Assembly: GCA_903915225.1 (NCBI GenBank)
Contig: CAIWSB010000089.1
Location: forward strand, 69,835-127,032
DNA: 57,198 nucleotides
Source: an uncultured Candidatus Woesearchaeota archaeon
GTDB taxonomy: Archaea; Nanobdellota; Nanobdellia; Woesearchaeales; B29-G15
Direction: 5' to 3'
Position numbers and translations under genes: made by a program. The notes beneath the pieces were generated by a model that worked only from the letters and a program-made list of their open reading frames with translations, did no database searches and had not been told where the DNA came from. Shown one piece after another: positions 7,738-56,872 of the stretch (position 1 is its first letter; the number at the start of each line of letters is the position of its first letter).

Positions 7738-7740
7738 GAA

Positions 7741-7917: not shown

Positions 7918-7918
7918 A

Positions 7919-29500: not shown

Positions 29501-29838
29501 ATAACTTCATTACCTAAATCATCAAAAAGGTGTATTGGTACAGTGACCTCTGAAGGCACGTATGTTTCCGAACCCAGGCTAACTGAGCACTTATATCCAC
29601 CGCGAAGTGCATAGCAAGACTGGGCGCTCGCAAGCCCAAACTTTACCTGACCCGGGGTAATCTCCATGTCACCATCGACCTTAACAACAGCTTCACCATT
29701 GAAAGAATCATACGCCTTAAGCCAGCCACCGATGCCTCTCTCCCCGGAAATTTTTGTGTCGTTAATTTCGGTTGCAGCCCGCGCAAGGCTACAAACTAGA
29801 GCAAGGCACAACACCCAAACTATCAGTTTGTTTTCCAT
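26572..29838 (-). CDS. Giant secreted protein with Ig-like domains and Cys-rich helical C-terminal region, module 1
   Basis: 1088 residues. Signal peptide at residues 1-21 (ending LARA). About five beta-sandwich domains of bacterial Ig type occupy roughly residues 25-580, with lines such as VKVSDLAGNNATLTL and VSSDTTDALGNAMTG. A Thr/Pro/Ser-rich linker (about 640-665, with TTTTLTST) leads to a helical, cysteine-rich C-terminal part that includes CLPGIMDNLKQFSNIQCGYAY and a matching pattern of later cysteines. The same region is present in the 1345-residue protein, so this is its paralog. A second short Thr-rich tail closes the protein. The gene is directly adjacent to the prepilin-like gene upstream (stop at 29839, start at 29838). 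Confidence 0.75.
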   Translation of the reverse strand: MENKLIVWVLCLALVCSLARAATEINDTKISGERGIGGWLKAYDSFNGEAVVKVDGDMEITPGQVKFGLASAQSCYALRGGYKCSVSLGSETYVPSEVTVPIHLFDDLGNEVMSQDYALGIDGYGPTVNLLLKSGFTNGKNPVQVNYSIVDTAFPGSEDCSGIGGITFTVPGGSDQTLDISTSDCEAEGSTLITIPPGTEDIEVCALAFDLLMQNGPFACQTIKVDTVAPTVVEDSLRFDIQGLPEGNTFLGPGKSYLADVYVKLNDPNTDKVTADFSGVNSEHQNYLMDANQCTLADTGVFECVFNNVEVVLGTEATSSVILKVSDLAGNNATLTLNYQFGLDNSGPEPLSMIVNNKQDDPLWVGPSITSIFVKFKEYGAGLSPDKVFLDLSVLGGSEKAPAKSCTKASDEEWGCSWGELSSACGLPSATISVSSDTTDALGNAMTGSLSKVLHIDCNAPSIISFNMTQPDAPFQLRNYTFLEGYPIIVNAKLQEANELLTTRVDPAWVRAAGLLNDTDLVGTTEVSDNITAQITEGCNRLSDGFWNCTYTIEKPFPGVYGATFVFEDIGMGSAEKTVEMTVYDVRNTTTKYWKVGSMERMPSAVDRSTAPYLNHQLMFLVGLGLINPGMTPPTTTTLTSTPTTVASTTPTTTGGCTGASCLTGSATAQLDAVRSKGIEASAPATYVKLLKVVDANCTGKDWEDYVLTDELFDGSDLGERPFYQILLKQMVMPLRNLNITCHLELYSLITSGDEKWVNDNPEQKNVTLEIPFYDTELPAEVLKKKIDSAVNDNLFVNIVKSPLYQTLETVYGIAQTLTEADRVLLQVADAMTAVEGLCDVLGAGTCSTFMDPFIKDLNAIHSAVAPYLTWLSCNQSIWEEIFPDSPFVENVLKEPEKFASSNIGSKWMKDNGYTQDDLTNPKKSLIASVAMLCLPGIMDNLKQFSNIQCGYAYCLQEASKMGIPSLYCEDLKSYENCVAMAEEFMYFFPIKKVYDDFAQAGNMALKSPISLIATGGAIACEFIPGIDVVCNFVKIGKALNSVDLVLNVVNNWGSWSTPVDYCSLLETTTTAETTTIADTSGVGNEAS

Positions 29839-31962: not shown

Positions 31963-32000
31963 TGCATTAGCCTCTATCCTAGCCAATCAAAAAAAAGAAT

Positions 32001-40920: not shown

Positions 40921-41955
40921 ATGCCGCAGAAAATAATATTCCTCGAAGAATTCGGTAAGGCTTTTATTCCCAAGAGATTCAGGCCGAAAATGGGTGAGTA
41001 CCTCATGAAAGCGGGGTACACAGAGGTCCCTTACAAACTCTATGGGGTATTCTTCTACCTCAGCCTTCTCATTACTGGAGGAATTTTCATCACACTAGTA
41101 AATCCCCAGATGAGATATATGCCACTGTTTAAGGTACTGGTCTTGTCTTTCCTTTCCTGGGCAGGCATCCAGCTCTTTGTTGTCTTCTTTATAGGCCTAA
41201 TCTATTATATTTACATGGAGCAAAAAATCTACATGCGCACCCAGAAGATGGAGGATGTGCTTGAGGATTTTCTCCACCTAGTCTCAGAAAACCTTAAGGG
41301 GGGCTTAACACTTGAGGAGGCACTCTGGGATGCTGTTCGTCCGGAGTTCGGGGTTCTTTCAAATGAGATTAAGCTGACTGCAAAGAAGGTAATGACTGGT
41401 GAGGATGTGCCAGATGCCCTCACTGACTTTATGATGAAATACAATTCGCCAATGCTCACACGCTCATTCAACCTCATAGTGCAGAGTATCTCAGGCGGAG
41501 GCAAGCTCTCTGACATAATTGATAAGGTTATCCGAAACATCATTGAAACCAAGCGGTTGAAGAAGGAGATGGGGGCAACCAATCTAACATATGTAATCTT
41601 TATTTCTTTCGTAGTTGTGGTTGTCACGCCGGCCTTGTTCACTTTGTCCAACCAGTTCCTGAGGATCCTCGGGCTTTTCTCTGTTGCCAGCACAGGGACG
41701 ATGGTAGCCTCAAGCAATTTTCCGCTCAGCTTTGGCGCAGTGAGCATTGACCCCTCATTATTCAAGAAGTTTTCAATATATGCCATTGGCACAATCTCTG
41801 TATTCGCTTCAATGATCATCTCAATAATACGCAGAGGCAGCATAAGGGCAGGGATTAGGCTAATTCCAATCTACCTGATTGCCTCTTTTGTAATGTATGC
41901 ATTGATATCCCAGATAGCTCAGACGGTGATTGGGGCATATTTCGGACTTCAGTAG
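40921..41955 (+). CDS. FlaJ/TadC-like membrane platform protein, second
   Basis: 344 residues. It begins directly after the stop codon of the preceding gene. Two membrane segments (about 42-105) are followed by the F domain (MEDVLEDFLHLVSENLKGGLTLEEALWDA ... FNLIVQSISGGGKLSDIIDKV) and about three more membrane segments toward the end. This is the second half of the heterodimeric platform. The 3' end overlaps the convergent coiled-coil glycosyltransferase gene by 7 bases, which marks the end of the pilus operon and the start of the radical SAM cluster. Confidence 0.9.
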   Translation: MPQKIIFLEEFGKAFIPKRFRPKMGEYLMKAGYTEVPYKLYGVFFYLSLLITGGIFITLVNPQMRYMPLFKVLVLSFLSWAGIQLFVVFFIGLIYYIYMEQKIYMRTQKMEDVLEDFLHLVSENLKGGLTLEEALWDAVRPEFGVLSNEIKLTAKKVMTGEDVPDALTDFMMKYNSPMLTRSFNLIVQSISGGGKLSDIIDKVIRNIIETKRLKKEMGATNLTYVIFISFVVVVVTPALFTLSNQFLRILGLFSVASTGTMVASSNFPLSFGAVSIDPSLFKKFSIYAIGTISVFASMIISIIRRGSIRAGIRLIPIYLIASFVMYALISQIAQTVIGAYFGLQ

Positions 41956-44900
41956 GCCTTGATGCGGCTCATCTCCTTTTCCAGCTCGGCAATTCGGGCC
42001 TCGATGTCGTAGAATTCCCTGAATACTTCAGCCTGGATTAGCAGTGCGTTGAGTTTGTTCTTCAACTCCCTAATACGTGAGATCTGTTCACTTTGGCTGG
42101 CGTATGCATCGCTGAGCTTGCACTTGATTTTTACAAGCTCATTGTACGCACCTGAAGAAACAAGGAGTGCATCTCTCTTCTGGTTGAGGAATGCCATATA
42201 AGACTCATCACGAGCATTTCTTTTTTTCTCAATAATTTTCTCGAGGTCCAAAATTCTATCATTAATTTTCTTTAGCTTGCCAGCAATTCCGCATGCCTCG
42301 AGCTTGGATACCCATTTTGACTCAATCTCTTTAGATTGCGTCCAAAGGGTGGTGATTTCGGAAGAGAGCTTTTCCATTTCTTTGTTAGTTGTAGAAATAG
42401 GCTTGTCTAATTTTGATTTAAATTTAATGTATGCCACAGAATTCTCAATTTGTTTTAACTCAGATTCCATTCGCTCAACTATTATTTTAATTTCATCCAA
42501 CTGTTTCCCTTTTGCCAGCCTTTTAGTATCTAGGTCGCTAACTATCTGAACAAACTCAGTTTGTTTTTTGGCGTAGCTTGGGTTTGCTTCCAGCTTTCTA
42601 ATCTCAAAAAGCAACTTGTCCTTATCCCGTTCTAGTGGGGCCAATTCTCTTGTCCATATTTCATCCCTTTCAGCTTTTAGCTTTTCCAAATTGGATTTTT
42701 CTGCTTCAGTCAACACGCTTTTGGATTCCAACAGTGAAATGGCAATTCTCACAGACTCAAAACGAGTTTTGATTAGATTGTTGAATTTGGTGTCAACCTG
42801 CGACATTTGCGCCTTAACCTTTTCAATGAGCACAAATTGGCCCAATTTAGCTTTTTTCTTTCCAAACTCACTCCTCTTTTCATTAAGCTCTGCCTCAATA
42901 TTTATGTATTCTTCCCAAAACCCATTCTTCCTCTGAGTTGCCTCTCTCAATGATTCCTGCAAGGCAATTATTTTTGAGTGGGTTTTATTGCCTTTTAGCC
43001 TAAGTTCACGCTCTTTAATTAGCTGCTCCGCTTTTTCCTGTAGTTTTTTCTGACAGGTCCAAACGAGTTCCCTTTTTCTTTCGAGTTCTTTTGCCAGGGC
43101 AATATGTTTGCTCCGTTCTTCAACTAGTCCTTTTGACTCAAACAAGAGGTGTTGCTCATAATAGAGCCTGTTCTGCTCTAAGGTTAACGGTTTTAGAACC
43201 TTGTTGAAATGGGCGTTTAAACGTACATTGAGCTTTTCTATTTGTTTGTCCAATTTTTGAAGCTCATCAATAATGCCTTTAGATTTGAGCAGGAGCTGCT
43301 TTTTAGCCTCAAGATTTTCAATCTCCATGCTGTTATTAGGCATAAATAGTCCGAGAATCTCATCCTGAATATGCCCAAATCCCAGCTGGATGTTCTTACT
43401 AATGAGCAAGCCTTCTTTTTGTTTAACCCGTGCCTTGTGTTCATTCACAACCTCTGCCAACTCTTTGGCTTTAAGGTATTCTTTTGAAGGAAAGTTCTGC
43501 TCAGTGCCCAACGTAATATCAAACAATGAATTCTCCGGCAGCAAACGTTGATTCGCTAATTGGAGTAATTGCGAACCAGTGCCCATCAACTGGATTGTGT
43601 ATGCTTTGAGCCCGATTAATTCATTTACTGTCAATTTTGCCTCGTCTGGACTTTTAGCCAAAACCCTGAAAAGCAAAGGCAGGTGCCTGGATTTTAGCAG
43701 CCTCAATGCAGGCAATAATTGCTCAAGGGTTTGCCTTGAGTCTAGGTTGAAAAGATAGACAATAGGATATTTTTCAAGGCAAGGAAGCATTGCCCCAGGT
43801 ATTGGCTTATCAACAGAAAGGAAAATTTCAGTTGATCCAGCAACTTTAAGCCATTCAAGGAGCAGCTGAAGGTCCTGCCAGCCAAAGCTGCCTTTGTCTA
43901 TGAATATACGCCCCAGATACTCCTGCATTTTTACCTCTGCGATAGCAGCAGTAAGGTTTTTTCCTTCAAGGGCTATTTTGGGCAATGCTGATGCAGGGCC
44001 AATTAATTTCCCAATTTCAACTGCACCATTCCTCATCTTGAGCTTAATCAGTGATTCGGAAATTTTTCTCAAGCCTTCACGGTTATTAGAAACCAATGAG
44101 AGTATTCCCATCCGAATTTTTTCGTGATTCCAATCCTCTATTCCTAAGCAAAGCCCTGCTTCACCAAGGGTTCGCACACGTTTTTTCTGATCGTCACCTT
44201 CCCTATAAACGGGAAGCAGTATTGATGGCACCTTGTAGTGCAGCAGCTCATTACTCGTGTTCCGGCCAGCATGAGAAATCACCAAATCAACAGATTGCAT
44301 AAGTGATATGAGTTTTGGCTCGTATCTGGTAAACTTAACGCCATCCATGCCAATGAACTCCTTATGGCCGCGGAACAATGGTCCAGAGACTGCAATGATG
44401 TTAAGATTCATCTGCTGTTGAAGCTGCTTGCATGCTTTTATGGATTCGGAAAGCAGTGACTTCGTTTCTGGTTCATAACCACCACTCCCGCAGGTGATGA
44501 GCAAATTCAACTTTTCCTTGGTTATTCCATATTTTTTCCTGACTGATGAATCCCATTGCTCCTCCCTAATTATGGTCCCAACAAAGTTTACCTTTGTATT
44601 GGAACAAGAAGAATCTGGTTCTGAACCTATGAAAACAGTATCAAACTTTGGAAGCAAGGTTTCAACCAAGTCTGTCTTATAGCCATCTAGAATCATGAAC
44701 GCCCGTACTCCTCGCATTTTGCAGTCAATGAGAAACTCTTCTGGGCAGATAGTATCGAAGAAAATCAAATCGGGATTAAAGCCGGAACATATGCCTTCAA
44801 GGATTTTCAGGTTTGATGGCTTGGGCACTGCAAAATCAAAATCCTCTGGTGCCAAGGTTGAGTCAAAATCTTTTGGAATCTTAACAAAGTGGAGTTTGTA

Positions 44901-45047
44901 CCTGTAGAAGAAATCCACAAAATCAGAGTTTGTGACAAACAGGAGGCGTGCAGCAGGCCACTGCCTTCTCAACGCACGAGCAATGCACACCAGGCGGTTG
45001 ATGTGCCCCAGTGAAACCCCGTTGACTGCATAAAACAATATGTTCAT
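41949..45047 (-). CDS. GT28-like glycosyltransferase fused to an alpha-beta domain and a long coiled coil
   Basis: 1032 residues. Residues 1 to about 345 are a GT-B glycosyltransferase of the MurG/UDP-glycosyltransferase kind: the N-terminal loop NGVSLGHINRLVCIARAL and the nucleotide-binding SHAGRNTSNELLHYKVPSILLPV (about 258-280) are both present. Residues about 365-520 are a set of alternating strands and helices (IFIDKGSFGWQDLQLLLEWL, then IFLSVDKP) that look like a degenerate radical SAM-type barrel with no cysteine cluster. From about 575 to the end there is a nearly uninterrupted charged coiled coil. It overlaps the start of its upstream neighbour (radical SAM-GT2 protein) by 4 bases and is the last gene of the cluster. 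The predicted role is glycan transfer, possibly with the coil as scaffold. Confidence 0.75.
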   Translation of the reverse strand: MNILFYAVNGVSLGHINRLVCIARALRRQWPAARLLFVTNSDFVDFFYRYKLHFVKIPKDFDSTLAPEDFDFAVPKPSNLKILEGICSGFNPDLIFFDTICPEEFLIDCKMRGVRAFMILDGYKTDLVETLLPKFDTVFIGSEPDSSCSNTKVNFVGTIIREEQWDSSVRKKYGITKEKLNLLITCGSGGYEPETKSLLSESIKACKQLQQQMNLNIIAVSGPLFRGHKEFIGMDGVKFTRYEPKLISLMQSVDLVISHAGRNTSNELLHYKVPSILLPVYREGDDQKKRVRTLGEAGLCLGIEDWNHEKIRMGILSLVSNNREGLRKISESLIKLKMRNGAVEIGKLIGPASALPKIALEGKNLTAAIAEVKMQEYLGRIFIDKGSFGWQDLQLLLEWLKVAGSTEIFLSVDKPIPGAMLPCLEKYPIVYLFNLDSRQTLEQLLPALRLLKSRHLPLLFRVLAKSPDEAKLTVNELIGLKAYTIQLMGTGSQLLQLANQRLLPENSLFDITLGTEQNFPSKEYLKAKELAEVVNEHKARVKQKEGLLISKNIQLGFGHIQDEILGLFMPNNSMEIENLEAKKQLLLKSKGIIDELQKLDKQIEKLNVRLNAHFNKVLKPLTLEQNRLYYEQHLLFESKGLVEERSKHIALAKELERKRELVWTCQKKLQEKAEQLIKERELRLKGNKTHSKIIALQESLREATQRKNGFWEEYINIEAELNEKRSEFGKKKAKLGQFVLIEKVKAQMSQVDTKFNNLIKTRFESVRIAISLLESKSVLTEAEKSNLEKLKAERDEIWTRELAPLERDKDKLLFEIRKLEANPSYAKKQTEFVQIVSDLDTKRLAKGKQLDEIKIIVERMESELKQIENSVAYIKFKSKLDKPISTTNKEMEKLSSEITTLWTQSKEIESKWVSKLEACGIAGKLKKINDRILDLEKIIEKKRNARDESYMAFLNQKRDALLVSSGAYNELVKIKCKLSDAYASQSEQISRIRELKNKLNALLIQAEVFREFYDIEARIAELEKEMSRIKAY

Positions 45048-47389
45048 CTTAGGTCATTCCTGCTCACCGCATAAGGCTTTCCAAAGAGATCGTACATTCT
45101 TAGGAATACATTCATATTCAGGGCCAGGAACTCGGAAAAAATATTCACTGTGGTAACTTTTATCTTAAGTTTCTTGGCAAGCTTCAAACTTCCCAGGGCA
45201 TAGTAGTATAAAGTGCCTGAGAGCGGTAGGCTTGTCTCATCAAACATGTATTTGTTTGGGTCCTGGCTTAGTGGAAGGTTCAGCTCAATACGCTTAACCC
45301 CAAATTGATGCAGCAATGCAACTGTTTCCTCCAAACTGGCGAAATTGAGCCTAGAGATTAGTAGCCGGACCTTAAGTCCCTGGTTCAATAATATTAAGTT
45401 CTGGATTGCCTTTAGGGCCGCATCAAACGAGCCTTTCTTGTTCATCAGGATATCATGATGTCCTGGATTTGCCCCACTGAGGTTAATTGTAAAGCGGTCC
45501 ACTCCAAGTTTCACTAGGTCAATGCAGTCCTTGAGGTTAGTCAGGGATTCTGCTTCTGTGTCAATCCCTATATGCCTGAAGCCTTTTGCTGATTTTATCA
45601 TCTCCTTGATATCTGGGTGCAGGAGAGGATTTCCACCCACAAAGGTCACCAATTTGTCACCTTCACCTGTAAACAACTCGAGCTGTTGCTTAACTTCCTC
45701 AAGAGAGCGCTCCTTGCCTGGCTTCTTTCCCAGATACTTAAAGAAAACGCTGTCATTAATTGTGGCATCATTCACCTGGATTGTACATTTCTTTTGATGT
45801 ATCCAGGGTTTGTAAACCTCATATAAAGAAGGATCAACAAACTTTTTATAGAATATCCTGGCGTTATATTTCAGAGCCTTGTCCATGCCATCCTTTGACG
45901 AATATACAACAGGATGGTGCTGGTGATAACCCTTTGCCTGTGGGTTTAGCACAAATCTCAGCCATTGTAACCTATAGCCAAGTTCCTGGTCCTCGATGCT
46001 CCAGAAGACAAAGCTCTCGTCAATGAGTCCTGCTCCCAACATATGTTTGCGCCTAACTGAAAGGTTGTTGGTGTAAATCATGTGCCACGGTGCATGGAAA
46101 TTTGATGGGCGGTCCTCGCACCACTTGAAGAAATCCTCGCGCATGTCAACCCTGCTGGGTATGCGCTTTATCTGGTCAAAGTCGTTGAGTATTATCTCTG
46201 GGTTAAGGGTTGCTTGGATTTCTGTGTTTGTGTGCATATCCAGGCGCTTGCCAATGACAACTGCATCATGGTTGTATTTCTTTTTGTAGAACGCATGGCT
46301 TCTCATGTGTTCTTCTAGGTTCTTTGGATCACAAATCACATCCGAATCCAGATATAGCATTATTTCCCCATTTGCGTATAGCGTACCGATGTTTCTGGCT
46401 CGTCCGGGGCCATAGCCCAGATCATCCTGGAGGAAATATCGCAGGCGGAATGGCGGATTCAGACGCGTTATCATTTCAGAAGTGTCATCTGTGCTGCCAT
46501 CATCCACAACAATTACTTCGAATTGCTCTGTTGGCAGGGTTTGGTTGAAAAGCGAGGTTAGGGTGTTTTCAAGTATTTTTGAGCGGTTGAATGTTGGTAT
46601 TATTACACTCATGGCCGGTTTTTTATTGATGTTTTTCCGGTTGTCAAACAGCAGCTCATGCCCCTCTTTCTTGCCTGTTTTCCTACCACGCTTCACCCAA
46701 CTGCTGTTGTAGAACTTCATTGAGAATGGTGTGAAGCGGGGTACAAGCAAGATCTCTAGCTCTGCCATCTTAGCGAGTGCCTTGCTTAGGTGTGGTACTG
46801 CATCGGGTATTTTTGGCACATAACGCTCGAGCACAGCATACTCTTCTGGGAGCGATTCTGGGTAGAATATCTGGATTTTTTTTGCTCCTAAATCTCCAAG
46901 AAACTCAACTGTCTTGTCGAGTGCCTTAAGGTTTTCGATTATTAATGGGACCTTCACTATTAAGTCAAACCCTGTAGCGATAACATTTTTGAGGCCAATT
47001 AGAGCCTCCCTAAAGGCGTCCTTTGAGCCAGTGGCAAAGTTGTGAATCTTAGCCTCGTGGGAATAAATGTCTATATAGAATCCAATAATTCCAGAGCGTT
47101 TTAGCTGCTCAACAAGAGGTTCATAAGCCAGTACGCGGCCGTTGCTCTCAATCCAGGGTTTAAAGCCATATGCCTTGACCAGTTTGATAATATCAAAAAT
47201 GTCCTCGCGGAGAAGCACTTCTCCCCCTACTAGAATTACCTCAGAGTAGACTTCTTTCCTCAGCTTCTGGAGCTCCTGCTCAATGTCAGGGATGCCTCTA
47301 TGTGGACATTTCTTGTCCATGAATCTGCATAAAGCGCATTCATTGTTGCACCTATCCCCAACAAGCAAAGTAGCCTGAATTTTAACCAC
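45044..47389 (-). CDS. Radical SAM - GT2 glycosyltransferase - cysteine-less radical SAM-like fusion protein
   Basis: 781 residues in three parts. Residues 1 to about 215 are a radical SAM barrel with C14, C18 and C21 (DRCNNECALCRF) and a GGE motif (VILVGGEVLL). Residues about 259-480 are a GT2 glycosyltransferase with MSVIIPTFNRS, VVDDGST (294-300) and the metal-binding DSD (348-350). Residues about 533-781 again read like a radical SAM barrel, with LVTFVGGNPLLHPDI (about 580-594), but the cluster cysteines are replaced: the expected positions hold A542, D546 and F549. The GTG start at 47389 follows a TATA-like stretch (AAATTAAATAATCC on the minus strand, about 47411-47424) and is probably leaderless. 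Substrate unknown; sugar transfer and radical chemistry on the same molecule is the simplest idea. Confidence 0.8.
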   Translation of the reverse strand: MVKIQATLLVGDRCNNECALCRFMDKKCPHRGIPDIEQELQKLRKEVYSEVILVGGEVLLREDIFDIIKLVKAYGFKPWIESNGRVLAYEPLVEQLKRSGIIGFYIDIYSHEAKIHNFATGSKDAFREALIGLKNVIATGFDLIVKVPLIIENLKALDKTVEFLGDLGAKKIQIFYPESLPEEYAVLERYVPKIPDAVPHLSKALAKMAELEILLVPRFTPFSMKFYNSSWVKRGRKTGKKEGHELLFDNRKNINKKPAMSVIIPTFNRSKILENTLTSLFNQTLPTEQFEVIVVDDGSTDDTSEMITRLNPPFRLRYFLQDDLGYGPGRARNIGTLYANGEIMLYLDSDVICDPKNLEEHMRSHAFYKKKYNHDAVVIGKRLDMHTNTEIQATLNPEIILNDFDQIKRIPSRVDMREDFFKWCEDRPSNFHAPWHMIYTNNLSVRRKHMLGAGLIDESFVFWSIEDQELGYRLQWLRFVLNPQAKGYHQHHPVVYSSKDGMDKALKYNARIFYKKFVDPSLYEVYKPWIHQKKCTIQVNDATINDSVFFKYLGKKPGKERSLEEVKQQLELFTGEGDKLVTFVGGNPLLHPDIKEMIKSAKGFRHIGIDTEAESLTNLKDCIDLVKLGVDRFTINLSGANPGHHDILMNKKGSFDAALKAIQNLILLNQGLKVRLLISRLNFASLEETVALLHQFGVKRIELNLPLSQDPNKYMFDETSLPLSGTLYYYALGSLKLAKKLKIKVTTVNIFSEFLALNMNVFLRMYDLFGKPYAVSRNDLR

Positions 47390-47599
47390 CCAAGAAAGTT
47401 GACACTTTTTGGATTATTTAATTTTTTCTATGGTGAAAGTCAAGCGAAGAGTAATATTCTCCTTAAGCAGCAGCAATAATGGCAGCCGTGAGCGGGGCCC
47501 CCTTTAGGGGTTAGCTCACCGTGCCCGCTGGCTCCATATTAGTCACCGCTTGGTACAACTATCCTCGGCCCCTGCGGCGCCATTGCTGCTGCAAAGAGG
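47390..47599. promoter_or_regulatory. Gap within the radical SAM cluster holding a promoter and the second structured element
   Basis: A 210-base stretch. On the minus strand AAATTAAATAATCC (about 47411-47424) lies about 25-30 bases ahead of the GTG at 47389, a likely promoter dividing the cluster into two transcription units. The rest is dominated by the structured element at 47467-47592. Confidence 0.5.
47467..47592 (+). repeat. Structured element, copy 2
   Basis: The closing stem pairs 47467-47483 with 47579-47592 over 14 bp with the same TAA bulge as copy 1 (16282-16374). Compared with copy 1, the base pair at position 7 has changed from A-T (16288/16368) to G-C (47473/47586), a compensatory change. 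The first inner hairpin is longer (GTGAGC at 47488-47493 with GCTCAC at 47514-47519, and CCCC/GGGG around a TTTA loop). The second arm shares the CCCGCTGG, CTCGG and GGCGCCATTG stretches with copy 1 but is longer. It sits between the stand-alone SPASM gene and the radical SAM-GT2 gene. Confidence 0.7.
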
Positions 47600-47962
47600 T
47601 TATTTCTCTTTTTTATTCACTGCGCCAACTCGCTTCAGGTAAGGTTCTATCTCATCCTCTTTGCCAATCTCTCTCAAGAAATCCAATATCTCTTCGTCGC
47701 TGATTTGAGGTGTGTCATAGCCTTTGCAGTGGAGACATTTAGGAAAATCAACTTTCGTGCGGACTTTGTCAAACTCACCCCGGATGTGGCACAGCCTTAT
47801 CTCATTTGCTTCGTCCCCGTACCATATCTCCCTGAATGGCTTATCTTTCAGGTTCCCCAGGGAGAGGTTCATCATGCCATCAAAACAGCAGATTGTGACA
47901 CTGCCATCCCACATTATTGTGGGGGTTTTAAAGGGACCAGAGCAAGGCCTACGGTTACTCAT
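47600..47962 (-). CDS. Stand-alone SPASM domain protein
   Basis: 120 residues consisting almost entirely of a SPASM-type auxiliary iron-sulfur domain. It starts MSNRRPCSGPFKTPTIMWDG, then SVTICCFD (two adjacent cysteines), GNLKDKPFREIWYGDE and CLHCKGYDTPQISDEEI. SPASM domains normally form the C terminus of a radical SAM enzyme and hold one or two extra clusters. The same sequence pattern occurs as the N terminus and the C terminus of the protein at 50661-52229. It overlaps the 90-residue gene upstream by 8 bases, so it is probably made together with it. It probably works with the SPASM-less radical SAM protein at 49953-50657. Confidence 0.82.
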   Translation of the reverse strand: MSNRRPCSGPFKTPTIMWDGSVTICCFDGMMNLSLGNLKDKPFREIWYGDEANEIRLCHIRGEFDKVRTKVDFPKCLHCKGYDTPQISDEEILDFLREIGKEDEIEPYLKRVGAVNKKEK

Positions 47963-48230
47963 CGGGATTCACCTTTTTCTTGTTCAGCCGCTGCGAATCC
48001 CAGACATTGTCATCATAGGATATAAGCCTAAAATGCTTTTCTTTCTTTGAGAAGAGATTATTCTCACTAATAGCTTTGTTGAACAGCTCATTTGCCTCCC
48101 TCTGCTTTCTTTCATGCGAGACAGCATCCAGCCTTTTCAGCCAAATAATGTCTCTGGTCCATTCCTCATCTGGGAATGAGATGGATGCAAGAAGTTCCAT
48201 CTGCGCCTTGTTGGGTTCCTCAATGCTCAT
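47955..48230 (-). CDS. Small protein resembling the link between a radical SAM barrel and its SPASM domain
   Basis: 91 residues. It starts with ATG at 48230 in a 4-base overlap with the stop of the double radical SAM gene. The segment RDIIWLKRLDAVSHERKQREANELFNKA is similar in pattern to the piece between barrel and SPASM in the protein at 50661-52229 (KDTIFLRVMGDLEPSQQ...LHEKIIRASKHF). The C terminus is basic and directly precedes the SPASM gene in frame order. It is likely a detached bridging segment. No independent motif is visible. The longer frame starting at 48317 lies inside the upstream gene and is not used. Confidence 0.6.
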   Translation of the reverse strand: MSIEEPNKAQMELLASISFPDEEWTRDIIWLKRLDAVSHERKQREANELFNKAISENNLFSKKEKHFRLISYDDNVWDSQRLNKKKVNPDE

Positions 48231-49963
48231 TTTCCCAGCCACCCCGTGAGCTCGCCTAGTCCGTTGTAGAATCGCTGGATGTCCTCCTGATAAACGCACA
48301 TTCTGCACCCGCGACACAAGAGTGGCTTATTTGGTTTATTGTAGAGCCCCAGCACTTTTTCCCTATAAGCTTTGTACTCTTGGGAATTCCACATCTCTGT
48401 AAAGCCTCTGCCTTTAATGTGGAAGATAGTTGGATGAAGGCAGCATGGCGCAATCTGCCCATCAAGATGAACTTGAGTTTCAAAGAAAGGCACCAAGCAG
48501 CCGACTTTATTGAAAATTCGCTTTGTATGGCTACCCGATAACGTCTCTTGATGGTTGAGCACATCCAGATAATGGTAGAAATTGTTGGCCAGGCTGTATC
48601 TTTCAGCAGCTTCCTGAGCTTCCACTACAAATTTGTTGACTTCCCTAATCTGCTTTGGCTTGAGGAGCAAATAATCTGTAAGCGGGGTTGTCTGGAGATG
48701 CCCAAGGTAAACAGCAGAGGCTCCGTTCTCCCTAGCAAAATCAACCATTTTAGGTATCTCATTATAGTTGATTGAGCAGATGGGGTTCATTATCCTAATC
48801 TCTGGCTTGGCAACACCAAGTTTTGCCTTTAGTTGTTTTATGTGCTTCAGATTGTTGACAACCCGAGCAAACTCGGTTTTAGGAACTGAATGAATCTTTG
48901 CATAGGTTTCTGCTGTTACTCCCGAAACATTTAGCTCTAGCACGTCTGCTCCGAGGCGAACAATTTCACGAATTTCTTCAGGGCTAGGCCGGGTTAGGTT
49001 TGTGAAAACCTGAACCTGGAGCCCGAGTCTCTTAATGAGACGCAGCATTGCCATGAGATCTGGGTGTGTTGTTGGCTCGCCTCCACCACCAAGCTGTATG
49101 TAACGACAGCCGGTTTTTGCAGCCTCCTCAACATAACTCTTCAAGAGAGTGAAATCAATTCGCTGGCTGTGCCAGGATGCAGGCCTTTTGACAAGCTCCT
49201 TGTCATATTTATGGGTTTTGAAATAATTATCCTCTTCTTTGAGGAGATGTGGGGAATGATGGTAGCAGAACACGCACTGGTGGTTGCATGTGTTTGTAAT
49301 CTCAAATTGAGTTACAATCGGCCCAGTGAACATATTATTGAGCAGGATTGACAGCTCGCGCTGGTAATTGGCGAAATCAATCTGGAGGTTATGTTTTTTT
49401 CCATAATCCCATACTTCTTTTATTTGAGGGAAAGCCTCAGCAAGGTCACAAAGTAACTCAAACCTGAATTCATGAACTCCAAACCCCTTAAAAAATTCCA
49501 CTGCTGAAAGGAGGCAATCCGAATTATCACTAGTTATAGTGTAATCCAGGGTGCGTTGAAGGCCCGCCAAGCGCATATTCACCAAACCCGCAATTGCCTC
49601 ACGAAAACTCCCCTGAACGCCGGTTGCAGCATCATGCTCAAGCTCACGGTAATCCATGAAAGCAACAAGAGCTTTCACACCATTGACAGCTAGTGCATCT
49701 GCAAGGTGGTTTTTGGCAAAAAGCCGGCCATTAGTTCTTATTGTTGTTTTAAACCTAAGGTGTGCTGCAGCCTCAATCAGTTGCGTTGATTCAGGGTGAA
49801 GTAAAGGTTCTCCACCAGCCAGTGTGAGCTCATTTGTGTGTAGCCTTACCTCCTTCATTAGCTTCAATGCATCACCATATTTTATTGCTGCAGCTGGTTT
49901 CCTGCGCAACTCATTGCACAGATTGCATTTATTATTGCATTCGTTGAAGAGCTTAAGCTCCAT
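48227..49963 (-). CDS. Double radical SAM protein with C-terminal SPASM domain
   Basis: 578 residues. The first barrel has C9, C13 and C16 (NECNNKCNLCNEL) with AGGEPLLHPE; it is short, about 200 residues. The second has C226, C230 and C233 (NTCNHQCVFCYHH) with LGGGGEPTTHPD and is complete. The C-terminal about 75 residues are a SPASM domain (GCLVPFFETQVHLDGQIAPCCLHP and CRGCRMC). Two radical SAM barrels with complete CxxxCxxC motifs in one chain are rare. The ATG at 49963 is chosen because the longer frame lies inside the upstream gene; it overlaps that gene's stop by 11 bases. The reaction is unknown; peptide or glycan modification is likely for a SPASM enzyme. Confidence 0.85.
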   Translation of the reverse strand: MELKLFNECNNKCNLCNELRRKPAAAIKYGDALKLMKEVRLHTNELTLAGGEPLLHPESTQLIEAAAHLRFKTTIRTNGRLFAKNHLADALAVNGVKALVAFMDYRELEHDAATGVQGSFREAIAGLVNMRLAGLQRTLDYTITSDNSDCLLSAVEFFKGFGVHEFRFELLCDLAEAFPQIKEVWDYGKKHNLQIDFANYQRELSILLNNMFTGPIVTQFEITNTCNHQCVFCYHHSPHLLKEEDNYFKTHKYDKELVKRPASWHSQRIDFTLLKSYVEEAAKTGCRYIQLGGGGEPTTHPDLMAMLRLIKRLGLQVQVFTNLTRPSPEEIREIVRLGADVLELNVSGVTAETYAKIHSVPKTEFARVVNNLKHIKQLKAKLGVAKPEIRIMNPICSINYNEIPKMVDFARENGASAVYLGHLQTTPLTDYLLLKPKQIREVNKFVVEAQEAAERYSLANNFYHYLDVLNHQETLSGSHTKRIFNKVGCLVPFFETQVHLDGQIAPCCLHPTIFHIKGRGFTEMWNSQEYKAYREKVLGLYNKPNKPLLCRGCRMCVYQEDIQRFYNGLGELTGWLGK

Positions 49964-50657
49964 TTTCCAACTCCATGAATTTCTCATAAACCCAGTTCTG
50001 TTTGAGAAGCTCAACTCGCCGTTCATTGGAGAGCAGGGGCCAGGCATCTGCAAGGTTCAACTTTACCTCGTCCTTTAGGAAACTGCTCCAAAACTCCACA
50101 AACTCCCTGCACTCTGCTGAATTTTCTTCCATAATTATGAACTGGAAGATGAACCGAGGGAACTTAAGATGCTGGCGTTCACGCTCCTTTACGAAATACA
50201 TTATCATCTGTTTAGCATTATCAAAGTCACCGCCACGGCGGATTGCCTTGTGGGTTTCTGGGTTCATTGCGTCAAGAGAGAAAGTAATCCGGGGCAAAGT
50301 CTCACCCAGGCTCAGCATAAATTCGATCATTGGCTTGGTGAGCAAGGTGGCATTTGTGTGAAGGTCAATATACGCGTTCTTACCCTTGATTTTTTCTGAG
50401 GCATAAGCAAGCATCTCCCTGAAGTCTGGATGCAGCATGCTTTCCCCCACCCAGAAGAGCTTGAGTGCCAACGGCTCAGCTCCGAACTCCAAACCATCTA
50501 TTGCCCGCTTAAAAACCTCCAAGTCCATAAATCCTTTTGGCACCTTGTGCGGGTTCTCAATTCCGAGCAGGGCCCTGGTGCACATTATGCAATCGCAGTT
50601 GCAGTAGTCAGTAGGCTCTATCAGAACATAGCGTCCGCGAAAGCCTTTATCCCACAT
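49953..50657 (-). CDS. Radical SAM protein without SPASM domain
   Basis: 234 residues. The barrel has C19, C23 and C26 (DYCNCDCIMC, with an extra cysteine at 21), LKLFWVGESMLHPD as the GE motif, and the family lines IDLHTNATLLTK and ITFSLDAMNPETHKAIRRGGDFD. This is the same family as the N-terminal domain of the 1548-residue protein and the barrel at 50661-52229. The chain ends soon after the barrel (WSSFLKDEVKLNL), where the relatives continue into the bridging helix and a SPASM domain. It starts 3 bases after the preceding gene. It probably pairs with the small genes at 47600-48230. Confidence 0.85.
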   Translation of the reverse strand: MWDKGFRGRYVLIEPTDYCNCDCIMCTRALLGIENPHKVPKGFMDLEVFKRAIDGLEFGAEPLALKLFWVGESMLHPDFREMLAYASEKIKGKNAYIDLHTNATLLTKPMIEFMLSLGETLPRITFSLDAMNPETHKAIRRGGDFDNAKQMIMYFVKERERQHLKFPRFIFQFIIMEENSAECREFVEFWSSFLKDEVKLNLADAWPLLSNERRVELLKQNWVYEKFMELENGA

Positions 50658-50660
50658 TGT

Positions 50661-52229
50661 TTATACAAAATCCCTCAGCATCTTATAGTTTTTCATTCTC
50701 CTCAGGAAAGGCGCAATCTCATGCATCTGACCTGTGTTTTGGAGATACTCCACAATTTCAGAATCTGTCATTTGTGGTGAATCAAGGTTAGGGCAGCCAG
50801 CACAGGTCTGCATACCTGCAAAATCGCCTCGGATGTGGTTCAAACGGCGATTAACCATTGTATCCAGGTTCCAGAGCCAGCTGAGCTTGAGCTCAGATAC
50901 ATTTCCAAAAGAGAGGTTCATATTGTAATCGTAGCAGCATACCCCCACTTCTCCATCCCATCTGATAACAGGAGTTTTCCAAAGCCCTGCGCAAGGCCTT
51001 CTTATGTACTCTTTTTGTTCCTTTGCGGGTGATTCAGCAGGAGTATTAAAGTGTTTTGAAGCACGAATAATTTTTTCATGCAAGCGCCATGAATCTGGCT
51101 GCTGCGAAGGCTCCAAATCACCCATAACCCTTAGAAAGATTGTGTCTTTCAGAAACGGTGGCTCGTAGCCTGCATTTATCTGGAATGGGAGGTTGAGTGT
51201 TTCAAGCTCACGCTTCCAGTAATCCACAAAGCCCTCAGCTTCGTGGGCGTTCTCAGGCATAACAATGAATTGGATGACTATCACTGGCCTTACTGTTTTA
51301 CGCATTTTGTTAAGCGGGTTCTTAATCAGTTCCGCTTTCAGCTTCAAGCACTCCTTAAGATTTTCAACAACCCTGTCAAAGTCTCCCCCACAACGGATTT
51401 TGTCATATGTTGGCTTTGTCAATGCATCAAGTGAAAACACAAGGTATCCAAGTGACCGGGCAGCCTCTTCTGAAAAGAGATATTCACGCATCTCCTTGGT
51501 CATAAGGATTCCATTTGTGTGGAGCTCCATATACTCAAATATCCTATTATTGAAGGGGTAAGTTTCAAGAAAATCCCTAAACAGGGTTTTATCTTTGGTG
51601 GATTGAATCTTATTGAATCTCTTGTCATACTCAGGATTAAAGTTGAGTTTGAACGCGAATTTGAGCATGTCCAGCAGCTTGGGGTGCAGCAAAGGTTCTC
51701 CATACCAAAAGGGGGTAATTGCTTTTACCCTAAGCTTGGAATTAAGCAGATCCAACATGATTTGTTCCCACATTTCCGGACTCATGTAGCCCTCTTTCTG
51801 GGGATTCAAAGTGCGTTTGCACATCACGCACTTCAAATTGCACTTTGACGTAACCTCAATTAACAGGGATTCAATTTTATTCCAACCTGTGCAAACCCTG
51901 TCAAGGTAATTGTCAACCAACTCTTGGCGATCAATCTGCTTCAAGTAGGAAATGACTTCAGCATCGCTGATTTTTGGGGAGCTGAACCCAGGACAATTGG
52001 CGCAGTTGATGTATGGTGCTTTTGGATCCCCAAGCTTAGAGAACTCTCCCATTACGTGTCTTAGCCTTAGTTCATCTGCCTTGAGGCCATACCAGATCTC
52101 ATCGAATTCTTGACCTTTGAGGTTCCCAAGCTTATAGCTCAGATGCTTGTCATGGCAACACACGGTGAGATTTCCTACTGAGTCTATTGCCGGAGTCTTC
52201 CAAGGTCCTGCGCAGGGTCTTCTGTTCAT
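50661..52229 (-). CDS. SPASM - radical SAM - SPASM protein
   Basis: 522 residues. The first 95 residues are a SPASM domain (RRPCAGPWKTPAI, LTVCCHD, GNLKGQEFDEIWYG, NCANCPGFSSPKISDAEV). A radical SAM barrel follows with C130, C134 and C137 (SKCNLKCVMCKRT), FWYGEPLLHPKL and the FSLDALTKPTYDKIRCGGDFD line. The last about 110 residues are a second SPASM domain (IRRPCAGLWKTPVI, GVCCYDYN, CAGCPNLDSPQM). A SPASM domain at the N terminus is unusual; it may serve the SPASM-less radical SAM protein encoded just upstream, with which this gene overlaps by 4 bases (ATGA). The iron-sulfur content would be high (three to five clusters). Confidence 0.88.
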   Translation of the reverse strand: MNRRPCAGPWKTPAIDSVGNLTVCCHDKHLSYKLGNLKGQEFDEIWYGLKADELRLRHVMGEFSKLGDPKAPYINCANCPGFSSPKISDAEVISYLKQIDRQELVDNYLDRVCTGWNKIESLLIEVTSKCNLKCVMCKRTLNPQKEGYMSPEMWEQIMLDLLNSKLRVKAITPFWYGEPLLHPKLLDMLKFAFKLNFNPEYDKRFNKIQSTKDKTLFRDFLETYPFNNRIFEYMELHTNGILMTKEMREYLFSEEAARSLGYLVFSLDALTKPTYDKIRCGGDFDRVVENLKECLKLKAELIKNPLNKMRKTVRPVIVIQFIVMPENAHEAEGFVDYWKRELETLNLPFQINAGYEPPFLKDTIFLRVMGDLEPSQQPDSWRLHEKIIRASKHFNTPAESPAKEQKEYIRRPCAGLWKTPVIRWDGEVGVCCYDYNMNLSFGNVSELKLSWLWNLDTMVNRRLNHIRGDFAGMQTCAGCPNLDSPQMTDSEIVEYLQNTGQMHEIAPFLRRMKNYKMLRDFV

Positions 52230-55200
52230 TTTCTGAAAAATAGGAGTATTGGTAGCTCAAGAGGCTTGTGCTCTTTTGTCAGGCTTTCCCCAAATAGGGA
52301 AATTCCCTTTTTGTGCTTGGCGGTTCCTTTAATTTTGAAGACAAGGGAATTGCTTTTTCCTTTCAGTTTAACACCTTTTGCGTGCCAATGGGTCACAAAA
52401 GTGGAGCGGTTTGGTTCAAATGGCAACAACTTTGTTTCAATCTCTTTGTTGTTAATTATGAGAGCCACATCTGAGGAATTTTTGGGGTCCTTGCCTTCCT
52501 TATGGGAATGTGAGCAAACCTTAGCAAAAATATCAATGCTGCAGGGGCCAGTGACCGAAGAGTCGAAATGGTATTCAAAAAACCCATAATCATCACCAAA
52601 GGCTAAGGCAAGCCCTTGGCTGTATTGTTCATCCCCCCGCCAAATCGCTGGCCCAAATCTGTTCCAGGAGGCAGAGTGCCATTTGAGCGGATCAATTAAA
52701 GCCAAATGCATATCGGGAGTTGAAGGTATTGGGGCTTTAGTGTCTTCTTTTTGCTTGAATTGTTCTACGTTTATCAGGTTTCCTCCGTACTTGAAAACAA
52801 TATCCTTTAGGTTAGCTTCACCTTTCATCAGGGAATTAATAAATTTAGAATTAACATGGGATGAAAACACTATGGCATCAACATAAGGATTAATAAAAAT
52901 TCTCTTCGCTTTTACAGTGTTGGTTCCGTGATATACCACAATATTCTTTGCTTCTTTGTGTCTCTTTTTTACATCTTCAAATACCTCAAGGAGGTTGCAG
53001 TTGAAATCCTCAAGCCAGATTCCAACATTTAAATCCTCGTTTAATCTGGACTTCTCAAAATTCAAATCTAACAGAGATGCACCAGGGAGTAATAGTCTAT
53101 TTGCCAATGGATAAACCTCAACGGATTGAGGATATTTCATATAGAACTGGGGAATAGATTGAGGGTATTTCACATAGAACTTTGGGATAATGAGGGATGC
53201 TGACTCGGACTTAAACAGATTTCTTAGGGATGAAGAGGATTTCCCATGGTCTACACTTGAAGAGAGGGTTATATCGCCATAGATTAATTGCATATTTATC
53301 TTAGGAAGTTTGTTGGGTTTCAAATTAGGATTGATTATATTACCTCCGTACTTGAAGCTGAGATTATCGAGACCAGCCCTCCCATCCAAGAGTGATTTTA
53401 GAAGAGAGGGTGTGGCATCCGAGGATTGGATTAGCCCGTCTACATTGGGGTTTAGCAGCAATCTCTCTGCTTCAGTTTGGTTTTTGCCATGGTATACAAC
53501 ATAATTCCTAACCCCGGGGCTTGTGTTTTTAGCATTGGCGAAAACCTCCATTAGGTTGCACTTTTGACCCTCAAACCAGATCCCAACATTTGCTTCGAAG
53601 TTGGGTACAATGGGGAATATGTTTCCATCTTGGAAGGAAAACTTTTTCACAGCTGAATAATAGCTCCGGGCTAGGTCATACACACCCGAGGGGTAAGCCC
53701 TATAGAACTTGGGGATAATGAGGGATGCTGACTCGGACTTAAACAGATTTCTTAGGGATGAAGAGGATTTCCCATGGTCTACACTTGAAGAGAGGGTTAT
53801 ATCGCCATAGACTAATTGCATATTTATCTTAGGAAGTTCGGTGGGTTTCAAATTAGGGTTGATTATATTACCTCCGTACTTGAAGCTGAGATTATCGAGA
53901 CCAGCTCTCCCATCCAAGAGTGATTTTAGAAGAGAGGGTGTGGCATCCGAGGAATAAATTAGCCCATCCACATTGGGGTTTAGCAGTAATCTCTCTGCTT
54001 CAGTTTGGTTTTTGCCATGGTATACAACATAATTCCTAACCCAGGGGCTTGTGTTTTTAGCATTGGCGAAAACCTCAATAAGATTGCACTTTTGACCCTC
54101 AAGCCAGATCCCAATATTTGTTTCATGATTGGGCACAATAGGTAAGATGTTTCCATCCTGGAAGGAAAACTTTTTCACAGCTGAATAATAATTCAGAGCC
54201 AAGTCATAAACCCCGGAGGGGTAGGTCTTATAGAACTTCGGGACAATTAGGGAGCAAGAAGATGCAGGTTTGAACCCAAAAGGAGAGATCTCCATCACAA
54301 TTCTCCGCTCTGATGAAGATATCTTTCTCATGCTTTTTGTGTGGTTAACTATGAAGTTTCCTCCAAAAATAAAGCCAGTTCCAGGGGTAATTATAGTCTT
54401 CAAATTGGGGAATTCCTTGAAGAAACCCAATGAACTGTTGACTGATACCACAAAATCAAGCTCAGCATTTAACAAATCTACCTTAAGCCTCTTTAATTCA
54501 TACTCTATCAGAAAGATTTTTGTATCATGATTTAAAGATTTAATCTCATCAACAACCCCAAAAGCATCGTTTTTGAATGAGAAATTATTAACAATCACAG
54601 ATCCAGCTTTTTTTATTGCCTTAATCGCAGATTCAAGTGAAGTGACATTAAAATCAAGAGATTGGCAACTCAACTGTTCCTGGAGTTTCCTCGCAAGTGA
54701 TATCTCATTAACAGAAACATTCTTATCAAAAATTTTGGGGATTACACTCACTATCGGCTTTGGATTGTTAAGAATTGTAGTCTCAAGGGTATGCAAAATT
54801 ATTTGAGAAATAAAAGAGGGTTCTGCTCTCTTAGATTTCGCTTTGCCTTCCAAAACATAGCATCTTTTTCCGTTTGCTACAAATTCCTTGAAATCATATC
54901 TCTTCCTAAATTCTGGGTTTTGGTGCCATACAAATGAAAAATTTCTAATGTCCTGAAACACAAGTACACGGGGGAACTTTTTCCACAGAATATTATGGAG
55001 GACCAAATCTATTTCGCTTTTGTAAGAACTTGTTTTTACTCTTTTTTCATTTAGTTCTTCTAATACAATCTTAAGATGAGGAAAACTATTCTTAAGCCGT
55101 TTTGCTAAGCCAAACGTATCTGAGTCCATATTAGAGTAATTAACAAGGACCGCTAATGGAATTTGCTTCGATTCTATAAGGTCAAATAACTCTTTCTCCG

Positions 55201-56872
55201 GAGAAAGATTGCTATTGAAATAATGCGGATCGTAAACCCCATCCGTATTCTCTTCATTGTCCCTTAACGAGAAACTCTCAATAAGATCAGATTCGTGTAA
55301 AAGCATTTTTATGGGGTGCTGTTTCAAATTGAATATAGGGGGTGAAACCACAACTATTGGTGTCCTGATGTTTGATTTGAAAAGATTTCTATCTAGCCCA
55401 AAGTCTAGGTTCAAGAAGAAGTTTTTCTCAAATCTTTCATCCCAATAAAAAACTTTGACTCCCAACTTGCGTCCTAGCTCCACAGCATTTGATCCAGGAT
55501 ATTTATCACAAATAATCACCGTTTTGATTCCTTCATCTTTAATGAGAGTTACAAGTTTTTCAACTCTCATTTTCAAAATATTCAAATCGAGGAATTTAAT
55601 CCTCCCTTTCAAAGAAAGAATGGAAGCGAGCTTCCCGCAATCCTGGAGAACTTTACCCAATAATTCGTGGTTTCCTCTAAAGTGTATCCTAGGCATTAAA
55701 AGTAAGATAGGAAAAGGGGATGGAGTATGCAGTGAAGGAACAGAATCGCTCAAGAATAGGTTAAGCTTATCCCAAAGAGTGTCTAATGCAATAATTTCGT
55801 CTATTTCGATGGACCTCAGCGCCTGTTCTATTGGACCATCAAAAATAAGTATATTCTTGACCAGCGGATCAACCTGTTTTAGGGTATAGAATATGTCAAG
55901 GAGATTATCCAAGTTTTGGGCTGAACTAAATCCCAAATTAAGTCTGGTATTTTCATCCACAAATTCCGCAAGGAAGTGTTTTGAAAACACAGCATTCGGC
56001 GTGTTCAAATCAAGAAAGTTCTTGCACCGATTGGCGAGTGCATCGGGCATTGTTTGAAGCTTTGAATATATTCTCTCTGTTGAACCCTTTTTCAACCTGA
56101 AAAAAGGAATGATTAAGTTGAAATACTCTGATTTATTTTCAGAAGTTTCTTTTTCAGAAGCAAGAGAGAAGACTACCCGGGCATCTGCTGAGAAAAGGTT
56201 TGAGGTGTCCAGATGTCTGATAAATAAGCAATCGTTGTCTCCCGGGTAATCTTTTTCTGAAAAAACAAGTGTGGGGGTTATGCCAAATCTAATAAGATAA
56301 TTGCTCCAGTATTTGATGAACGGGTCTTTCTCTTTCAGGTTGTGAGACATGACGATAAATTGGAATACCAACAAGGGCTCTTGCCTTGAGTATTTACTTC
56401 TTGCCTCAATGAAACCCTTGATGTTCTGCAAAACTTTCTCAAAGTTACCATTCCGCCGAATCTTGTTATAGGTTTCTGCTGTGGCTGCATCAAGAGAAAG
56501 CACGATTCGTTTCATAATGTTGGAGTCTAAGCTGAAAATTTTTTGAGTCACAAGGGGAGTTAAAAAAGTCGCGTTGGTGTGAATTTCAATTCGTATTTCT
56601 TTATTCGCCAATTTTTTTGTGGCATATTCAACCATCTCCACAAAGGAAGGATTCATCAGAGGTTCCCCAAGCCAAAACGGAACAAGGGTGCCTGCCTCAA
56701 ACTTTGAATTTGCAAGTTCATCGATTATCTTCCTGAACAATGAGAAATCAAGATGGTGCCTCTGGTTTACAGGGGTTTTTCCAGTGTCGCACATTACGCA
56801 ATCAAGATTACAATGGTTTGTGAACTCTAGAGTTACGTACCCCTCTTTATTTGGTAAAACCCAATGCTTCAT
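52226..56872 (-). CDS. Giant radical SAM protein with tandem B12-binding-like repeats and beta-rich C-terminal domain
   Basis: 1548 residues. Residues 1 to about 230 are a radical SAM barrel with C21, C25 and C28 (NHCNLDCVMCDTG) and FWLGEPLMNPS. Residues about 300-870 hold two or three Rossmann-like stretches (for example FPILLLMPRIHF ... GIKTVIICD). Residues 874-1049 and 1050-1225 are two nearly identical 176-residue repeats, and 1226 to about 1370 a diverged third. Each repeat reads IGIWLEGQKCNLIEVFANAK, VVYHGKN, LLLNPNVDGLI..S, LLDGRAGLDNLSFKYGGNII, which follows the line of a cobalamin-binding radical SAM N-terminal domain, but the usual GEGE is replaced. The C-terminal 170 residues are beta-rich, galactose-binding-like. 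There is no SPASM domain; the next gene begins with one. The promoter is at about 56900-56911. Confidence 0.8.
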   Translation of the reverse strand: MKHWVLPNKEGYVTLEFTNHCNLDCVMCDTGKTPVNQRHHLDFSLFRKIIDELANSKFEAGTLVPFWLGEPLMNPSFVEMVEYATKKLANKEIRIEIHTNATFLTPLVTQKIFSLDSNIMKRIVLSLDAATAETYNKIRRNGNFEKVLQNIKGFIEARSKYSRQEPLLVFQFIVMSHNLKEKDPFIKYWSNYLIRFGITPTLVFSEKDYPGDNDCLFIRHLDTSNLFSADARVVFSLASEKETSENKSEYFNLIIPFFRLKKGSTERIYSKLQTMPDALANRCKNFLDLNTPNAVFSKHFLAEFVDENTRLNLGFSSAQNLDNLLDIFYTLKQVDPLVKNILIFDGPIEQALRSIEIDEIIALDTLWDKLNLFLSDSVPSLHTPSPFPILLLMPRIHFRGNHELLGKVLQDCGKLASILSLKGRIKFLDLNILKMRVEKLVTLIKDEGIKTVIICDKYPGSNAVELGRKLGVKVFYWDERFEKNFFLNLDFGLDRNLFKSNIRTPIVVVSPPIFNLKQHPIKMLLHESDLIESFSLRDNEENTDGVYDPHYFNSNLSPEKELFDLIESKQIPLAVLVNYSNMDSDTFGLAKRLKNSFPHLKIVLEELNEKRVKTSSYKSEIDLVLHNILWKKFPRVLVFQDIRNFSFVWHQNPEFRKRYDFKEFVANGKRCYVLEGKAKSKRAEPSFISQIILHTLETTILNNPKPIVSVIPKIFDKNVSVNEISLARKLQEQLSCQSLDFNVTSLESAIKAIKKAGSVIVNNFSFKNDAFGVVDEIKSLNHDTKIFLIEYELKRLKVDLLNAELDFVVSVNSSLGFFKEFPNLKTIITPGTGFIFGGNFIVNHTKSMRKISSSERRIVMEISPFGFKPASSCSLIVPKFYKTYPSGVYDLALNYYSAVKKFSFQDGNILPIVPNHETNIGIWLEGQKCNLIEVFANAKNTSPWVRNYVVYHGKNQTEAERLLLNPNVDGLIYSSDATPSLLKSLLDGRAGLDNLSFKYGGNIINPNLKPTELPKINMQLVYGDITLSSSVDHGKSSSSLRNLFKSESASLIIPKFYRAYPSGVYDLARSYYSAVKKFSFQDGNIFPIVPNFEANVGIWFEGQKCNLMEVFANAKNTSPGVRNYVVYHGKNQTEAERLLLNPNVDGLIQSSDATPSLLKSLLDGRAGLDNLSFKYGGNIINPNLKPNKLPKINMQLIYGDITLSSSVDHGKSSSSLRNLFKSESASLIIPKFYVKYPQSIPQFYMKYPQSVEVYPLANRLLLPGASLLDLNFEKSRLNEDLNVGIWLEDFNCNLLEVFEDVKKRHKEAKNIVVYHGTNTVKAKRIFINPYVDAIVFSSHVNSKFINSLMKGEANLKDIVFKYGGNLINVEQFKQKEDTKAPIPSTPDMHLALIDPLKWHSASWNRFGPAIWRGDEQYSQGLALAFGDDYGFFEYHFDSSVTGPCSIDIFAKVCSHSHKEGKDPKNSSDVALIINNKEIETKLLPFEPNRSTFVTHWHAKGVKLKGKSNSLVFKIKGTAKHKKGISLFGESLTKEHKPLELPILLFFRK
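53190..54253 (-). repeat. Tandem 528-bp repeat inside the giant radical SAM gene
   Basis: Two adjacent copies, about 53190-53725 and about 53718-54253, are nearly identical in DNA over most of their length, with a period of 528 bases (176 codons); for example the same stretch starts at 53184 and again at 53712. Most differences fall near the part corresponding to the first 60 residues of each unit. The third copy to the left (about 52750-53190) is clearly related only at the protein level. Confidence 0.85.

Follow-up and report, generated by a model that had tools for sequence, protein, structure and literature searches.

A cluster of eight genes in a genome of the Woesearchaeota (DPANN) was found to contain what appears, by comparison with intact paralogs, to be a single radical SAM enzyme made of three polypeptides, with its barrel, its bridge and its auxiliary-cluster domain encoded by separate genes. 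The window, meaning the whole analyzed stretch of 57,198 nucleotides, spans positions 69835-127032 of contig C89 in a genome of 1.69 Mb (G000), and the contig stops where the window stops. The genes are listed below in transcription order, with the evidence in parentheses, and are referred to by their first letters.

52226-56872, minus strand: A1548, radical SAM domain plus a long repeat region (Pfam, own HMMs)
50661-52229, minus strand: B522, twitch-radical SAM barrel-twitch (Pfam, own HMMs)
49953-50657, minus strand: C234, radical SAM barrel only, without SPASM, putative piece 1 of the split enzyme (Pfam, alignment)
48227-49963, minus strand: D, two radical SAM barrels and a C-terminal SPASM/twitch, between pieces 1 and 2 (Pfam, own HMMs)
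47955-48230, minus strand: E91, detached bridge, putative piece 2 (alignment with intact paralogs)
47600-47962, minus strand: F120, detached twitch domain for a [4Fe-4S] auxiliary cluster, putative piece 3 (Pfam, ligands)
47450-47599, minus strand: intergenic hairpin 3' of F, a probable transcript end, found in its own genome only (folding, z -2.8)
45044-47389, minus strand: G781, radical SAM barrel-GT2-dead radical SAM barrel, the opening gene of the second unit (Pfam, hhalign)
41949-45047, minus strand: H1032, glycosyltransferase with a GT28 C-terminal (MurG-like) domain and a long coiled-coil-like tail (Pfam PF04101)

The open reading frames, Pfam and our own HMMs confirmed the eight genes on one strand at 41949-56872 that a previous sequence-only reading had described. 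The genes are packed tightly, with overlaps of 4 nt (A/B), 11 nt (C/D), 4 nt (D/E, ATGA), 8 nt (E/F) and 4 nt (G/H, ATGA), and a gap of 3 nt between B and C. Translation of D more likely starts at the ATG at 49963 (578 aa), which overlaps the C stop by those 11 nt, than at the TTG at 50053. Two transcription units, A-B-C-D-E-F and then G-H, are likelier than one, since F and G lie 210 bp apart and the gap between them holds a strong hairpin (-67 kcal/mol). This gap (47390-47599) was considered as a known RNA or a dispersed repeat, and both were rejected, with no match in Rfam and no second full-length copy in the three genomes of the genus, namely G000, G001 (Candidatus Woesearchaeota isolate B29_G15) and G002 (isolate AB_69_Bin_160). 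In G002, short GAAGTCT/GAAGTTA repeats occupy the F-G gap (L065:11000-11250) in place of the hairpin.

The domain layout proposed for the eight genes was mostly reproduced by Pfam and our own HMMs. The CX3CX2C motif and a Pfam PF04055 match place A, B, C, both D barrels and the N-terminal G barrel among the radical SAM proteins, and an alignment recovered the LDA...TY.KIR.GG.F line said to be common to A, B and C. The barrel of A (residues 9-208, motif CNLDCVMC) is followed by a bridge-like segment without a C-terminal twitch, and then by about 1300 aa of alpha/beta repeats with a beta-rich C-terminus. This repeat and C-terminal part is an orphan of the genus, with orthologs only in G001 and G002 among the 241 genomes of the order. 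The B12-like repeats suggested for A found no support: Pfam gave no match, and hhalign against B12 domains taken from B12-radical SAM proteins of the genus gave at most 48% probability. The AF2 model of A was unusable (pLDDT 41.5). Around residues 885-1236, A also holds two nearly identical tandem repeats of about 175 aa, apparently a recent internal duplication.

The pieces described earlier as detached or terminal SPASM domains are present, but their type is different, as they carry the four ligands of a BtrN-type twitch domain with one cluster. In an alignment with BtrN, the twitch profile built from F, B and other detached domains covers residues 169-241 with the ligand pattern CX17C...CX2C kept, and F retains all four ligands (C7, C25, C76 and C79), so that a cluster is predicted. 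In G, the C-terminal barrel has a radical SAM fold (hhalign 99.6% probability) without CX3CX2C and is, judging from its sequence, catalytically dead. The central domain of G is a GT2 glycosyltransferase (PF00535, 96.8 bits vs a gathering score of 23.3), whose closest match is chondroitin synthase. H belongs to GT28 by PF04101 (53.3 bits vs a gathering score of 22, E 4.5e-14), while its score of 49.6 against the MurG equivalog model is far below the cut-off of 250. Residues 361-560 of H were considered as a further dead barrel, and this was rejected (hhalign 1.2%).

When the barrel of C, the bridge of E and the auxiliary domain of F were joined in silico, the product aligned from end to end with intact one-gene paralogs encoded in these genomes, for example L012:906-1985 and L051:3-1019. 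The domains had been called shuffled, and a better description is that gene boundaries have shifted in a tandem array, with C, E and F being one enzyme in three pieces, an assembly that we infer. The distance profile of F correlated with that of the C barrel (r 0.91, rank 2 of 60; 0.88 and rank 3 in G002), whereas against the two D barrels it gave 0.00 and -0.08, near the bottom of the ranking. In the controls, barrel and SPASM distances of intact proteins correlated at 0.88, and the true partner came out among the top three of 60 for 12 of 14 proteins left out in turn; these mirror-trees were built on related paralogs and show likeness of distances rather than contact. The three-piece form was seen in two genomes only. 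Because both species encode C, E and F separately, without the barrel and twitch on one chain as in BtrN, the set is described as working like a twitch-type radical SAM enzyme and not as a standard member.

The cluster is retained in a second species. The sequence-only reading would have failed had the homologs been scattered without a common neighborhood, and the idea survived, as the cluster is syntenic in G002. There, contig C24 carries the order A (with the repeat part in two ORFs), B, X, C, D, E, Y, F, G, H. Two of these genes are additional to those of the window: X, which separates B from C, encodes a radical SAM protein of 410 aa, and Y, which separates E from F, a radical SAM/SPASM protein of 352 aa. 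Beyond H, three pilus-type genes, a TPR gene and MetRS follow in the same order as in the window, so that the surface-type neighbors are conserved on the pilus side. In the window itself, several large proteins with no match in Pfam are encoded at 22466-31986, between an S-layer-like gene and MetRS. In the third genome, G001, A and B are present together with an X-like radical SAM gene, up to the point where the contig breaks off; the presence of X in G001 and G002 and its absence from the window suggest that the window's species lost it. The cluster is therefore conserved as a whole, while single enzymes are gained and lost.

Between the window and G002, the pieces stand in the same order and are 57-67% identical in amino acids, while synonymous sites have reached saturation. 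The orthologs of B in the two congeners are 62-68% identical, and those of C (L047:6983-7720), D (L047:7698-9392), E and G are 67%, 58%, 57% and 59-60% identical, respectively, with the architecture of G unchanged. H evolves fast, with 35% identity to its ortholog at L061:2604-5789. Between the two species, pN was 0.226 for C, 0.259 for E and 0.246 for F, compared with 0.239 for MetRS and 0.174 for the PilB-like ATPase, while pS was 0.83-0.99. Because their pN is close to that of MetRS with synonymous sites saturated, C, E and F are, on this evidence of constraint, functional proteins and not debris.

These values bear directly on whether the detached pieces could be decaying fragments that recombination in a tandem array left of once full-length genes. 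Recombination is likely among tandem paralogs, and many such clusters lie on short contigs or at contig ends. However, the frames of C, E and F are open and under MetRS-like constraint in two species, the ligands of F and the tight overlaps are kept, and in G002 the pieces have stayed intact despite the gene that separates E from F. For C/E/F, decay is largely refuted and we consider it highly improbable. It is unlikely, though less so, that F is an electron-acceptor subunit shared in trans by several barrels (A, C and others) without a fixed C/E/F trimer. A also has no C-terminal twitch, electron transfer between molecules has a precedent in a radical SAM enzyme (PMC10470005), and in G000, though not in G002, the first twitch of B fits the barrel of A (0.81) better than that of B itself (0.65). 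However, F tracks C best among its neighbors, and no other partner suggests itself for the bridge E. In the AF2 model of B, made to see which twitch docks, most twitch parts were at pLDDT <50. A daisy chain, in which each N-terminal twitch serves the preceding barrel, was considered for the array on contig C112 and set aside, as the mirror-tree results were mixed and the N-terminal twitch of the first gene keeps its ligands.

Separation of barrel and SPASM domains recurs in the genus. Split pairs were found at L012, L015, L048 and L051, for example a barrel at L012:7999-8775 with a twitch at 7718-8002, and other layouts include tandem SPASM-barrel genes (L010), SPASM-SPASM-barrel (L049) and a SPASM-B12-radical SAM fusion (L052). 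G000 and G002 each contain at least 24 SPASM domains, whereas the other genomes among the 233 examined from the order have at most 17. Outside the genus, detached SPASM genes are less common: of the 11 matches listed in frames of at most 125 aa, 7 come from G000, G001 and G002, including one at a contig edge, and two of the remaining four also lie at contig edges. A convincing split pair outside the genus, from another family, is L088:2886-3650 with 2578-2913. At the same locus, a carbamoyltransferase gene (L088:872-2566; G217:C48) adjoins the split pair and a B12-radical SAM gene. A nucleotidyltransferase/HEPN pair resembling a toxin-antitoxin system (L015:1531-2136 and 2072-2590) was also observed inside a radical SAM cluster of the window's own genome.

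Arrays outside the genus are mostly intact. The locus L101 (G190:C13:56000-72500) is a tandem array of eleven radical SAM genes, the majority of which have SPASM; a GT2 gene closes the array, which can be viewed as an intact counterpart of the split one. The protein of 1960 aa encoded at L090:1576-7458 (G203:C21) combines four radical SAM domains with a B12-binding domain and ends in a SPASM, and its gene lies in a run with further radical SAM/SPASM genes and with one GT2 and one GT1 gene.

The cluster most likely serves to tailor a sugar or glycan, because SPASM domains co-locate with GT2 genes and fusions of GT2, radical SAM and SPASM recur. In 15 other woesearchaeal genomes, chosen mainly for their many SPASM domains, at least 40 of 144 SPASM domains lay within 3 kb of a GT2 gene (the best 150 matches listed), against at most 5.6 expected, which is about seven times chance under an expectation taken from the union of GT2 neighborhoods with rounded genome sizes, ignoring the general clustering of biosynthetic genes. 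With one member counted per cluster, the figure was at least 18 of 78 against 2.9 expected (p 6e-10). Single-chain GT2-radical SAM-SPASM proteins of 606-668 aa occur at six loci of one woesearchaeal family (L094, L095, L096, L098, L099 and L100), and the reverse order, radical SAM-SPASM-GT2, at one (L097:3482-5305). Sister clusters contain PMT-type glycosyltransferases and a polysaccharide deacetylase. Among PDB sequences, B matched BtrN only and the detached domain matched BtrN best, while D gave weak matches to SkfB (the best), PqqE, BlsE and SpeY. Of the glycan or glycoprotein product proposed previously, the glycan part was thus strengthened by the co-location, the fusions and the proximity of BtrN, BlsE and SpeY.

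With the AF2 model of B, Foldseek ranked SuiB and another sactipeptide enzyme above the sugar enzymes. As RiPP enzymes lead there and SkfB leads the PDB matches of D, the fold alone is compatible with a peptide substrate. The cluster might accordingly be read as a RiPP system in which the maturases act on a precursor encoded elsewhere and G is a glycosyltransferase similar to MftF of mycofactocin. SPASM/twitch enzymes are common among RiPP maturases, and weak matches to MftF, SkfB and PqqE were obtained. Nevertheless, the previously reported absence of a precursor peptide gene was upheld within the cluster, where the F-G gap is the sole gap and holds no conserved small ORF; Pfam found no leader-binding RRE domain, the NCBIfam RiPP models all scored far under their cut-offs, and the association with glycosyltransferases extends across the order. 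We regard a RiPP cluster as an unlikely reading.

The reading we favor, as a probable one, is that the locus tailors a glycan or sugar, with A, B, C/E/F and D as serial enzymes resembling twitch dehydrogenases, C/E/F as one reassembled enzyme, and G and H as glycosyltransferases. BtrN oxidizes an aminocyclitol, with its auxiliary cluster as the presumed electron acceptor (PMC9012708). The separate but translationally coupled polypeptides C, E and F would reassemble non-covalently into one radical SAM enzyme. As in BtrN, the SAM-bound cluster in the C barrel would generate a 5'-deoxyadenosyl radical that abstracts hydrogen from a sugar carbon, and the electron would pass to the auxiliary cluster, here carried by the separate subunit F. 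The chemistry, substrate and product we infer are the oxidation, epimerization or deoxygenation of a sugar residue, which G and H would then place into a larger glycan, perhaps one at the cell surface. More broadly, Woesearchaeota may tailor glycans with modular radical SAM lines whose gene boundaries are freely redrawn, with barrels, bridges and auxiliary-cluster domains separated or newly fused, and with a conserved three-subunit enzyme in which an exchangeable subunit of its own carries the auxiliary [4Fe-4S] cluster, a generalization that we put forward tentatively, at somewhat less than even chances.

No published description of such a cluster was found in the literature searched, mostly without subscription papers. 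The auxiliary clusters of the characterized radical SAM enzymes described in two of these sources lie in extensions of the barrel chain, and their role is called unsettled (PMC10470005, PMC9012708). If the proposal is true, a natural three-piece enzyme would allow the auxiliary-cluster subunit to be added or omitted at will, making the role of the cluster directly testable, and would point to undescribed anaerobic sugar chemistry in DPANN archaea.

Among known systems, BtrN (2-deoxy-scyllo-inosamine dehydrogenase) resembles these enzymes in its barrel and one-cluster twitch with four Cys ligands and in its sequence matches to B and the detached domain, but it is one chain of about 250 aa, whereas here the twitch is duplicated, detached or N-terminal. 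The N_Twi_rSAM model NF033640 shares the twitch-before-barrel order of B and the C112 array, but its scores were 61-99 bits (at most 85 in the window proteins, 80-99 in L010) vs a cut-off of 170, and it includes neither a detached bridge nor a detached twitch. Of the curated models, TIGR04317, for the radical SAM maturase of a tungsten cofactor oxidoreductase, fits the barrels of A, B, C and D best, but reached only 80-124 bits vs a cut-off of 380. Mycofactocin likewise combines a radical SAM/SPASM protein (MftC) with a GT2 (MftF), but here no precursor was found, the barrels are many, and the GT2 scored 57.7 bits vs the MftF cut-off of 280. The other woesearchaeal arrays (L101, L090 and L094-L100) likewise have serial radical SAM/SPASM domains adjoining or fused to GT2, but mostly as intact or fused genes, whereas the genus of the window splits them.
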